In this document: piece by piece, positions 45,260-50,847 of the stretch
How positions within the stretch are numbered: position 1 is the first letter of the stretch
Layout of the letters: each line of letters starts with the position of its first letter
Origin: Paenibacillus sp. sptzw28
GTDB taxonomy: Bacteria > Bacillota > Bacilli > Paenibacillales > Paenibacillaceae
DNA length: 64,000 nt
Reading direction: 5' to 3'
Assembly (NCBI RefSeq): GCF_019550795.1
Contig: NZ_CP080545.1
Span: 3,878,001-3,942,000, forward strand
The notes under the pieces: generated by a model
Seen by the model: the letters and a program-made list of their open reading frames with translations, nothing else
Told to the model about the DNA's origin: nothing
Database searches by the model: none
Translations under genes and position numbers: made by a program

Positions 45260-48013
45260 TCACCTCTCTACTGTTTCCATAACGTAGGCTTCGATCGTGT
45301 CTCCCTCTTTGAGGTCATGGTATTTATCCAGTGTAATACCGCACTCATAACCTTGGGCGACCTCTTTGGCGTCATCCTTGAATCGTTTGAGCGACTCGAT
45401 CTCACCATCGAATATAACGATACCGCCGCGAATCAGGCGCGCCTTGGCGGAGCGGGTGATTTTGCCGGAAGTTACCATACATCCCGCGATCGTACCTACT
45501 TTGCTGACTTTGAAAATGTTGCGGACCTCGGCTTGGCCGATGACGACCTCTTTATAAACCGGATCAAGCATGCCCTTCATCGCGTGCTCGATTTCATCAA
45601 TTACGTTGTAAATGATGCTGTGCTGGCGAATATCCACCTGCTCCTGCTCCGCAGTGGCGATAGCCTGCGGCTCCGGACGAACATTGAAGCCGATGACGAT
45701 CGCGTTGGAGGCGGAAGCCAGATTGATGTCGGACTCGGTGATTGCACCTACGCCGCTGTGAATGATCTTGACGCGTACGCCCTCGATGTCGATTTTACCG
45801 AGCGAGCCCTTAAGGGCTTCCGAAGATCCTTGAACGTCGGCTTTGATAATAACGTTCAAGTCTTTAATTTCGCCTTCTTTGATGTGTTTATACAAATCGT
45901 CGAGCGTAACGCGGGTATGTTCTCCCAGCTCGGATTGGCGCTGCTTGATGGCGCGGCGTTCAGCAATGGCGCGTGCTTTGCGCTCGTCCTCGAACACGAG
46001 GAACGGATCACCGGCCAGCGGCACTTCGGTTAACCCTGTGATTTCCACCGGCGTACTCGGTCCGGCTTCTTTCAGACGCCGGCCTTTGTCGTTCACCATG
46101 GCGCGTACGCGGCCGAAGCAGTTGCCCGCCACAAACGCATCGCCGATTTTGAGTGAACCGTGTTGAACGAGAATACGTGCAACCGGTCCTTTACCTTTGT
46201 CCAGCTCGGCTTCGATAACGGTACCGCGCGCCCGTTTGTTAGGGTTCGCTTTGTAGTCGTTCACTTCGGCAACGAGCAGTATCATTTCGAGCAGATCTTC
46301 AAGTCCTATGCGCTGCTTGGCCGAAACGTTGACGAAGATTGTATCTCCGCCCCATTCTTCCGGAACGAGCTCATAAGGGGTCAGCTCCTGCTTGATTTTA
46401 TCGGGATTCGCATCGGGCTTATCGATTTTATTGACCGCAACGATGATTGGAACTCCCGCTGCTTTCGCGTGGTTGATGGCTTCAACCGTTTGCGGCATGA
46501 CGCCGTCATCGGCTGCGACCACGATAATGGTGATATCGGTTACCTGCGCACCGCGCGCCCGCATGAGCGTGAACGCTTCGTGGCCCGGCGTATCAAGGAA
46601 CGTAATTTTCTTGTGGTTGATCTCGGCCTGATATGCGCCGATATGCTGGGTTATACCGCCCGCTTCGCCGCTCGTAACGCTCGTATGGCGGATAGCGTCA
46701 AGCAGTGTTGTTTTACCGTGATCGACGTGACCCATAATGGTTACGACCGGCGGACGGGTTTCGAGGTTTTCTTCTTCGTCCTTCTCTTCGAATGTCTCGA
46801 AGGCGTCCTCTTCGACCGGAATCTTCACTTCGACTTCAACGCCGTATTCTCCGGCGATAAGCTGCACCGTATCAATATCAACTTCCTGGTTAATTGTCGC
46901 CATTACACCAAGGAAAATAAGCTTCTTGATAACCTCGGATGCGTCTTTATGCAGCAGCTTGGCTAAATCGCCGACCGTCATATTTCCGCGTACGATAATT
47001 TTCTTCGGCGTGTTGTCAATCTTTTCTCTGCGTTCCTGCTGTTGGTTGCCTTTGCCGCGTTGATTCTTCCCGCCGCGGTTATTACCTTTATAATTGCTGA
47101 CTCTCGCATCGTCGAAGCGTTTGCCGCCTGCGTTACCCGGTTTGGTCTTCTTTCCGCCCCGATCGTCAGTTGACCCGGGACGGGATTCAAATGCGCGTCC
47201 TGCCCCTTGCGGAGCGCGGTTTTGCTGTTCCGGACGCGGCGCGCCGGAGCGAAATCCACCCTGACCGCCTTGACTTTGGCCGCCTTGGCCGGGACGCGGT
47301 GCGCCGCCCTGGCCTTGACCTGCAGGACGCTGGCCGCCTTGACCAAACCGTTGCCCGCCTTGGCCGCCGGCGCCTTGACCGCCTGGGCGTTGACCCTGGC
47401 CTTGCTGGCCGCCTTGGCCGAATCGCTGACCGCCCTGACCTTGGCCCGCCGGACGTTGGCCGCCCTGACCTTGACCTGCCGGACGCTGACCGCCTTGACC
47501 TTGACCTGTAGGGCGCTGACCGCCCTGACCTTGGCCTGCCGGACGCTGACCGCCCTGACCTTGGCCTGCCGGACGTTGGCCGCCTTGCTGCGATGCCGGA
47601 CGCTGCTGCTGAGTAATCGTACTTGCTTGTGTATTTGGTTTTGTTGTATTCATATTCCCCTGTTGGTCCTGGTTTGTATTTTTATTCATTGGTGCTGATT
47701 GTCCTTGGGTTGTGCTTTGCTGCGGCTTCCGTTCCAACTGCGGCCCTGCGGGACGGTTTGCCGTTTGTGCCGATGCGGAAACAGTCGCGTTCTCCTGAGC
47801 GCGCTTGGCTGCCGCATTGGATTTAATATCACGGAAAAATCCTTCTACTTTGTTGACCATCTCGTTTTCCATTACACTCATATGATTGTTGACCGGAAGA
47901 TTGAGACGCTTCAATATCGTAATGATTTCTTTGCTGCTCATATTGAGCGATTTTGCGTATTCATAGACTCGCAATTTATCCTTGTTGTCCTTGCTGTCTT
48001 GTGGTTTAGTCAA
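45260..48013 (-). CDS. infB: Translation initiation factor IF-2
   Basis: A 917-aa GTPase that places initiator tRNA on the 30S subunit. IF2_N modules lie at about 15-65 and 338-390. G1 GHVDHGKT is at 428-435, then DTPGHEAF and NKIDKP. Domains II, 3 and IF2-C follow. About 200 residues more than B. subtilis IF-2 come from a Gly/Gln/Arg/Pro-rich stretch at about 141-285. It includes six tandem decapeptides of the type [10 protein letters not shown] (141-200). The start is TTG with GGAGG nine nt upstream, overlapping ylxQ by 8 nt. Confidence 0.97.
47414..47593. repeat. 30-bp tandem repeat coding for decapeptides in infB
   Basis: Six consecutive 30-bp units encode [10 protein letters not shown] variants (residues 141-200 of IF-2); further imperfect G/Q/R units continue to about 47224. 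Adjacent units are nearly identical at the DNA level. Confidence 0.85.
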
Positions 48014-49853: not shown

Positions 49854-50315
49854 TTAGAAGACGATGGCCAAACGGGCACTGGCCATTTTGGCATATGGGA
49901 TCGTATGCTTCTTTTTGCCGATCTCGACGACCGCTTCTTCTCCATCGAACGAAAGGAGCGTGCCTTCGAACTCCTTGGATCCCCCGATAGGCTCATACGT
50001 TGTAATAAAGACGTGTTTGCCCACCGCTTTGCGAACGTCGTCCGGTTTCTTTAGCGGCCTCTCTGCTCCAGGCGATGAAACCTCGAGAAAGTAAGCCTCT
50101 GTGATCGGGTCCTGCTCATCGAGCTTCTCGCTCAGAAACTCGCTGACACGGCCGCATTCGTCAATATCGATGCTGCCTTCTTTGTCGACGAATACGCGGA
50201 GAAACCAGTTGCCGCCTTCTTTGACGTATTCCACGTCAACAAGCTCAAATCCATTTTCGTCAAGAAACGGACGGACCATTTCTTCCACGACGGTTTTGAT
50301 TTTAGCTGTGCTCAA
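49854..50315 (-). CDS. rimP: Ribosome maturation factor RimP
   Basis: A 153-aa 30S assembly factor (B. subtilis YlxS, 156 aa). It starts [17 protein letters not shown] and contains [25 protein letters not shown] and [12 protein letters not shown]. The start was set at a TTG (50315) with AGGGGG ten nt upstream. The open frame continues to 50438, but those extra residues translate the tandem repeat array and are not RimP. First gene of the nusA-infB operon; no confident promoter found. Confidence 0.95.
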
Positions 50316-50334
50316 AAATGATGTACCCCCTACT

Positions 50335-50633
50335 GCAACTGTTAATCGCGTTTGTAGCGGCGATTCGGTTGTCAGTGAAATTTTGCAACTGTTAATCGCG
50401 TTTGTAGCGGCGATTCGGTTGTCAGTGAAATTTTGCAACTGTTAATCGCGTTTATAGCGGCGATTCAGTTGTCAGTGAAATTTTGCAACTGTTAATCGCG
50501 TTTATAGCGGCGATTCAGTTGTCAGTGAAATTTTGCAACTGTTAATCGCGTTTATAGCGGCGATTCAGTTGTCAGTGAAATTGGCAACTGTTAATCGCGT
50601 TTGTAGCGGCCATCAGTTGTTAGTGAAATCTAT
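50335..50633. repeat. Tandem array of about six 50-bp palindromic units
   Basis: Units start at 50335, 50385, 50435, 50485, 50535 and 50584. Units 1-2 are identical to each other, units 3-4 are identical to each other, unit 5 differs from 3-4 only at its end (49 nt), and unit 6 is degenerate. A seventh, very degenerate remnant may reach about 50676. Each unit holds CAACTG(tt)AATCGC ... GCGATTCAGTTG, a 12-bp stem with a 2-nt bulge and 10-nt loop. There are no unique spacers between units. The array begins about 20 bp upstream of the rimP start, next to its Shine-Dalgarno. Confidence 0.93.
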
Positions 50634-50701
50634 AACTGTTGACGGCTCTGGGCCAATCAATCGGTTAGTTGTCAGTCGTAAAAAGGTGTTGACAAAACGT
50701 A

Positions 50702-50723
50702 AAGAGTGGGTTTCCCCACTCTT
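50702..50723 (-). terminator. Terminator downstream of polC
   Basis: A 9-bp perfect stem AAGAGTGGG/CCCACTCTT with a 4-nt loop, then TACGTTTTG on the minus strand. Confidence 0.75.
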
Positions 50724-50847
50724 CTGCGAAAAAGTCGTATCATCAGCATTGCCAGAAAGATTATACCATAACCATCTTGTGGTGACAACAAATGAATTGT
50801 TATGGCGCTTAAGAGTACGTCTCGGCTGCGGGAAAGCTGCACCCGGC

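Follow-up and report, generated by a model that had tools for sequence, protein, structure and literature searches.

Among the small repeats described so far, REP elements offer the closest comparison for the sequences considered here, and the passages of PMC3733652 and PMC8266576 that concern them provide the features used in that comparison, namely size, extragenic location, bulged hairpins, subfamilies and clustering. PMC3733652, in the portion relevant here, also names RUP, Bcr1, EFAR, ERIC and NEMIS as MITE-like small repeats. A family of attenuator hairpins in the leader of rimP has been described separately, in part of PMC2965389. Here we compare with these systems a tandem array of palindromic units that lies directly ahead of rimP in the 64-kb window, by which we mean the whole stretch of DNA that was analysed.

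The tandem array and the rimP leader

The array comprises six units of 42-43 nt at positions 50333-50623 that recur with a period of 50 bp (49 bp once), together with a degenerate seventh unit at 50630-50675 (Table 1). Tandem Repeats Finder places it at 50334-50629, with a period of 50, 6.0 copies, 96% matches and a score of 522, which is the highest among the five rows returned for the window. This period and the mapping of individual units bear out the initial annotation, which had proposed a tandem palindromic array upstream of rimP-nusA-infB; nusA and infB, the genes after rimP, are presumed to be such from their translations. The claim that the array abuts the rimP Shine-Dalgarno is likewise correct, as unit 1 ends at 50333, the GGGGG occupies 50330-50326 and the TTG start codon lies at 50315-50313. 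An assembly artefact is unlikely, given that the genome is one contig and that arrays are present in other assemblies too. Elsewhere in the window, at 47424-47587, GC-rich repeats of 30 bp and 90 bp lie within the presumed infB frame and encode a Gly/Gln-rich stretch.

Table 1. Positions in the window of the rimP leader features and of the array units
Feature	Position	Strand	Description
Predicted promoter of the rimP operon	50760..50788	-	TTGTCA-17-TATAAT; 11/12 match; TG before second hexamer
Attenuator-like hairpin of the rimP leader	50702..50723	-	AAGAGTGGG..CCCACTCTT, then T run; upstream of array
Unit 7	50630..50675	-	strongly degenerate; by eye, similar stretch at same place in relative G016
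Unit 6	50582..50623	-	42 nt; partial degeneration, weakened inner stem
Unit 5	50533..50575	-	sequence identical to unit 3
Unit 4	50483..50525	-	sequence identical to unit 3
Unit 3	50433..50475	-	subtype with all stem pairs intact
Unit 2	50383..50425	-	subtype of unit 1
Unit 1, closest to rimP	50333..50375	-	43 nt; terminal CAG directly before Shine-Dalgarno; outer-stem C-A mismatch
rimP Shine-Dalgarno, GGGGG	50326..50330	-	2 nt past unit 1
rimP	49854..50315	-	start TTG, stop TAA; NCBIfam RimP 199.3 bits against a cut-off of 163

On the minus strand, which is the direction of rimP, units 1-5 read CTGACAAC[CT]GAATCGCCGCTA[CT]AAACGCGATTAACAGTTGCA[AG] and are joined by linkers of 6-7 nt that carry nearly one sequence throughout the array. 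The division of these units into two subtypes (1-2 and 3-5), distinguished by two linked positions, had been noted before and is confirmed: one loop base differs, and an outer-stem U-A pair is replaced by a C-A mismatch in units 1-2, with unit 1 differing additionally by its final G. The minimum free energies are -10.7 and -9.1 kcal/mol for units 1-2 and -13.1 kcal/mol for the fully paired subtype (units 3-5), and both subtypes fold better than shuffled sequences (z of -3.4 and -4.7). The complete rimP leader also folds better than its shuffles, with z of -5.0 on the minus strand and -6.5 on the plus strand. In the predicted fold of the entire leader the array units pair partly with one another, so the row of six equal hairpins that had been envisaged is only one of several folds, although hairpins in the leader are possible.

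The array occupies the space between the attenuator-like hairpin and the rimP Shine-Dalgarno. A GAGTGGG/CCCACTC hairpin, with one substitution allowed, is present upstream of rimP at all 49 Paenibacillus loci, of which 29 have a TTGTCA/TATAAT-like pair with at most two substitutions. Because these elements lie upstream of rimP, the array is probably situated in the leader RNA; it would be transcribed between attenuator and Shine-Dalgarno, with an effect on the operon that is expected to be modest at most. Attenuator and start codon are separated by 51 to 405 nt across the 49 loci, and by 386 nt here. By lengthening the leader, the array could change how accessible the Shine-Dalgarno is or how fast the mRNA decays. 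The hairpin at 50702-50723, being a G-rich/C-rich hairpin followed by a T run upstream of rimP, fits the rimP-leader attenuator as characterized in part of PMC2965389, and the array itself does not have this form. The attenuator shares the leader with the array and lies just upstream of it, but it is a separate and widespread terminator-type hairpin, of which the array is no part.

The array is not a general component of the rimP operon, since a model of the hairpin unit yielded just two weak matches (E of 0.68 and 3.8) when applied to 50 rimP loci from named records, all but one belonging to Paenibacillus; the former match lies beside rimP in locus L106. Hairpin-type tandem repeats were found in none of 48 other rimP leaders. 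Weak CTGMCAG..CTGCAG hairpins, chosen by eye, precede rimP in four close species, with z of -1.4 to -2.3, and a conserved hairpin at this position in relatives is therefore only partly supported. In the rimP promoter region of Paenibacillus nanensis (L118), a different tandem repeat of 44 bp (3.4 copies, 91% matches) reiterates a TTGTCAC stretch upstream of the gene.

A dispersed family with a conserved fold

The pattern CTGACAAC..GTTGCAG has 18 matches in the same genome and none for a reversed control; one of the 18 (L006) apparently lies in coding sequence and was taken as chance. A covariance model, R1, built from 17 units yields 47 matches with E of at most 1, and the 33 of these that fall below 1e-8 are distributed over 10 places. 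The shorter core AACYGA..TAACRGTT matches 60 times, five of them as overlapping second matches in one array, against 6 for the control, and adds five places, including a sister type with a CAC/GTG foot. The hairpin family thus resides at about 15 places in this genome. Arrays or single copies are found next to or ahead of rapZ, ytxH, araA, a helicase gene, rimP, an acyl-CoA ligase gene (NCBIfam match below cut-off) and genes for a periplasmic binding protein and a serine protease, whereas antisense copies lie beside a MutS-type gene, smc/ftsY (smc being a presumed identity), tsaD and argS. As the element also accompanies unrelated genes, in both orientations, a role specific to rimP is unlikely. 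The later sets of array rows omit 13 of 113 model matches, of which 12 are weak reverse-strand echoes and one is a duplicate locus.

The units are built on a common plan. A 3-bp foot with one unpaired 5′ base leads into CAACYG/CRGTTG and a 3′ bulge, and beyond these lies an inner stem of about 6 bp, which has its own sequence at each locus but still pairs. The 3′ bulge is AA in 26 of 34 units and AG in five. By eye, unit ends are mostly CTGN/..CAG, with TTG/CAA, GTG/CAC and CAC/GTG also represented, and the flanking bases change between arrays. For 33 units, 93.9% of cells are paired compared with 75.5 ± 1.2 in shuffles, both-side changes number 75 compared with 20.2 ± 3.7, and the covariation score is 0.488 compared with 0.160 ± 0.016; none of 500 shuffles was as high for any of these three measures. 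Two further measures stand at the shuffle level, namely the number of pairs with a both-side change (7 versus 6.7) and of further pair types (17 versus 17.8). When whole arms were exchanged among 34 units, drawn from 33 of 40 clusters (weak and sister-type ones were left out, as was L088, whose 3′ arm contains an additional base), the observed values were again higher, with 94.1% paired versus 84.1 ± 1.0 and 58 both-side changes versus 16.7 ± 4.8.

Many units in the covariation set were found by the structure model, and their counts consequently lean toward structure. The fairest test is therefore that on core matches, which are chosen regardless of the inner stem: 29 of 33 distinct matches of at least 27 nt in the same genome, or 14 of 16 when counted by place, can form four or five of five inner pairs, compared with 2 of 80 among the listed matches of at least 27 nt in other genomes, a background that leaves out the known carriers G013, G029 and G071. 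The covariation is strong, and it is the fold that is conserved and not the stem sequence. Both the 3′ bulge and the bulged 5′ base persist across loci, genera and one other family. This combination of covariation and retained bulges favours recognition of the element as a folded single strand.

A larger form of the element was encountered in genus g33, where two genomes, G146 and G160, contain at least 17 and at least 15 matches, respectively, on many contigs (17 candidates were scored per genome). These copies (loci L263-L294) sit within an element of about 140 nt. It opens with an AT-rich hairpin, which a linker connects to a small GCCGCC..GGACGGC hairpin; the family hairpin, here of the CAC/GTG type, and a conserved tail then follow. 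The AT-rich hairpin covaries, with both-side changes at 7 of 37 predicted pairs among 15 aligned copies. Each genome has its own variant, as TAACGGTT is present in all 16 of the G146 copies that could be read, from 17 fetched, and TAGCGGTT in 14 of 15 G160 copies, which suggests recent copying within each genome. Four loci of this element have no match in Rfam. By eye, the element, with about 15 similar copies per genome, is often located just after terminators.

Distribution and unit number in relatives

The unit is present in related genomes, so that its absence from all of them, which the initial annotation had named as a refutation, does not apply. These genomes probably represent Paenibacillus and its family, as judged by RimP identity to named records. 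With the unit model, 10 of 58 other genomes match at E <= 0.001 (11 of 59 including this one), and across the family 15 of 343 others match at E <= 1e-6 (16 of 344), in 4 of 19 genera. A core model, R2, matches 9 of 392 genomes of the order at E <= 0.001, and among these nine only G071, with two full units bearing a TTG/CAA foot (L242), lies outside the family; the large genome sets were searched with faster filters, at which weak matches are lost. The 16S-23S rRNA spacer of L212 (G285) also contains a family unit, at 1501-1544, and apparently a second one close by; L219 has the same flanks (the rRNA being confirmed for L212).

Separate species carry the element at the same genes. It is found at rimP in this genome (G000), in G016 and weakly in G010; at rapZ in G000 and G016, with a remnant visible by eye in G013; at ytxH in G000, G013 and weakly G007; at dpaA in G003, G014 and G013; and at the acyl-CoA ligase gene in G000 and G013. 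Elements at the same gene have different stems in separate species. Units inside one array are often identical. Whole units have been gained or lost between close relatives. At dpaA, G014 has three units and G003 two, a difference of exactly one 47-bp unit between flanks that are 90-95% identical; the two aligned units differ in their loops in step between the genomes, and a third loop occurs in the additional unit, the first of the G014 array. Upstream of these dpaA arrays (L083, L084), G014 and G003 share a nearly invariant stretch of about 100 bp, possibly a promoter region. Seven units in G011 correspond to four in G010 at another locus. G010 also contains one unit between what we take to be nadE and acpS; the corresponding loci of G011 and of nine further genomes gave no match to the model. 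The terminator just downstream of this site is alike in G010 and G011, and the comparison of filled and empty sites reveals a discrete unit with no clear target duplication, between flanks that are only about 75% alike. A similar comparison of the rapZ insertion site recognised 9 of 22 loci, the intergenic regions being too diverged.

Possible origins of the array

The array, the dispersal of its unit, a constant fold with covariation, shared gene positions across species and the gain and loss of whole units are all observed, and the array before rimP probably arose where a REP-like hairpin repeat, dispersed in Paenibacillus and relatives, expanded locally. Of the options put forward in the initial annotation, a family-specific palindromic element expanded by slippage is accordingly the best supported, ahead of protein binding, titration of a factor or tuning of the operon, and its suggestion of stepwise unit duplication appears to be right. 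In such a scheme, a single palindromic unit of about 42 nt would arrive or persist in a short intergenic space and would multiply head to tail via replication slippage or unequal recombination; units would then drift and re-homogenise inside each array, with the fold (foot, bulged base, CAACYG/CRGTTG and a mostly AA 3′ bulge) kept and the inner stem free to be re-coded. The copying machinery of the family is presumed. Counting against a REP-like repeat are the failure of our search to find any enzyme able to move the element, the low copy number in the genome, at about 15 places, and a placement just before the Shine-Dalgarno that would also fit a selected mRNA role.

In the form that such an mRNA role might take, hairpins before the Shine-Dalgarno would act as a 5′ stabiliser or as sites for an RNA-binding protein, with copy number tuning the dose. 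This would accord with the 15 of 42 array rows, at eight distinct genes, in which 15-21 nt that include a Shine-Dalgarno separate the array end from a start codon, with the location of the rimP array downstream of a predicted promoter and a known attenuator, and with the retention of the AA bulge in most units. Sense rows also outnumber antisense rows by 24 to 9 in our assignment, from which sister-type and some weak rows were left out and in which two were unclear, but the split becomes 16 to 9, which is not significant, once same-gene loci are counted once, and the bias is for that reason not used as proof. Furthermore, antisense sites exist (L064, L068, L071, L072, L075, L077, L080, L085, L096 and one in L086), and they keep the fold as well as sense sites do, the best unit averaging 12.9 of 14 pairs in the 9 antisense and the 24 sense rows alike. 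Neither strand is favoured by the mismatches, as G-U (26) and A-C (27) are equally common, and the ratios by placement, 22:18 in sense and 4:9 in antisense, are not significant. Given also that the downstream genes are unrelated and that units are present in a 16S-23S spacer, we consider a cis-regulatory RNA an unlikely explanation for the array.

A passive origin would require neither recognition nor function, since slippage together with template-switch mutation could yield self-correcting tandem palindromes. The identity of units within many arrays, their differences in step between close species and the missing strand preference would all be expected of such a quasi-palindrome, and template switching within palindromes could create compensatory changes without selection. 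It should, however, remove unpaired bases and so erase bulges, and yet those on the 3′ and 5′ sides persist. Because the core AACYGA/UAACRGUU is common to unrelated loci, copying is needed in addition to local correction, and a purely passive origin is quite improbable. Mobilisation as a true REP element by a Y1 (RAYT/TnpA_REP) transposase would accord with the size, extragenic place, bulged hairpin, alternative paired-stem subfamilies and clustering outlined in the relevant parts of PMC3733652 and PMC8266576. The copies in G146 and G160 look recent. Against such mobilisation, PF01797 has no match in this genome, and among the element-bearing relatives (10 in the 59-genome set) its only match is a marginal one of 24.1 bits inside a 694-aa frame in G016; seven of the 59 genomes match PF01797, six of which have no element. 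Inspection of the units by eye revealed neither a GTAG nor a CGTC tag that is constant, and the arrays run head to tail with no regular alternation. A true REP element of this type is thus highly improbable.

A locally expanded, REP-like family remains the reading that we prefer. A possible but doubtful further reading is a new class of mobile folded-strand repeat that operates without a Y1 transposase, in which a bulge-defined CAACYG/CRGTTG hairpin whose inner stem is free to change would be copied by some other enzyme through the genomes of Paenibacillus and relatives, amplified in place and co-opted as a copy-number-variable hairpin before Shine-Dalgarnos, including that of rimP-nusA-infB. 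With the REP transposase absent from this genome, what else moves or multiplies such hairpins becomes a question. The gain and loss of whole units at the same genes between close species supplies a natural series of 0, 1, 2, 3 and 6 hairpins for expression tests, which could be used to ask whether hairpin number near a ribosome-binding site alters expression. Annotation of CRISPRs and promoters can likewise be misled by arrays of this sort.

A phage or plasmid origin was rejected, as no similar DNA was present among 50,697 phage or 72,556 plasmid records. The window has no gathering-level match in Rfam, and a search of 10 loci with E up to 1 yielded nothing beyond rRNA and, outside the element, a single ZTP match below threshold. 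The array resembles a CRISPR in that direct repeats with internal dyad symmetry stand in a row; it is not one, as had been concluded earlier, because it has no spacers, only its short linkers of nearly one sequence. Like the MITE-like repeats RUP, Bcr1, EFAR, ERIC and NEMIS, members of the family are small, non-coding, dispersed and often beside genes, but they consist of a single hairpin in tandem arrays, for which neither a clear target duplication nor a parent transposase was found. The likeness to REP, BIME and REPIN sequences is greater in kind: the units are extragenic palindromic hairpins of the 20-40 bp order used to define REP/RAYT systems and share with these 20-50 nt imperfect palindromes the occurrence of bulges in some, alternative paired-stem subfamilies, clustering and dispersal. 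The family differs from them in lacking the GTAG tag, in the absence of a Y1 transposase from this genome, in its one-orientation, head-to-tail arrays and in having far fewer copies, with the 47 matches of the model (E of at most 1) and the 60 of the core pattern falling below the more than 100 copies of REP. No description of this repeat, nor of a REP-like system in this group, was found in the open-licence literature, and the family thus adds a REP-like system whose host range also differs from that of REP, being found here in Paenibacillus and relatives.
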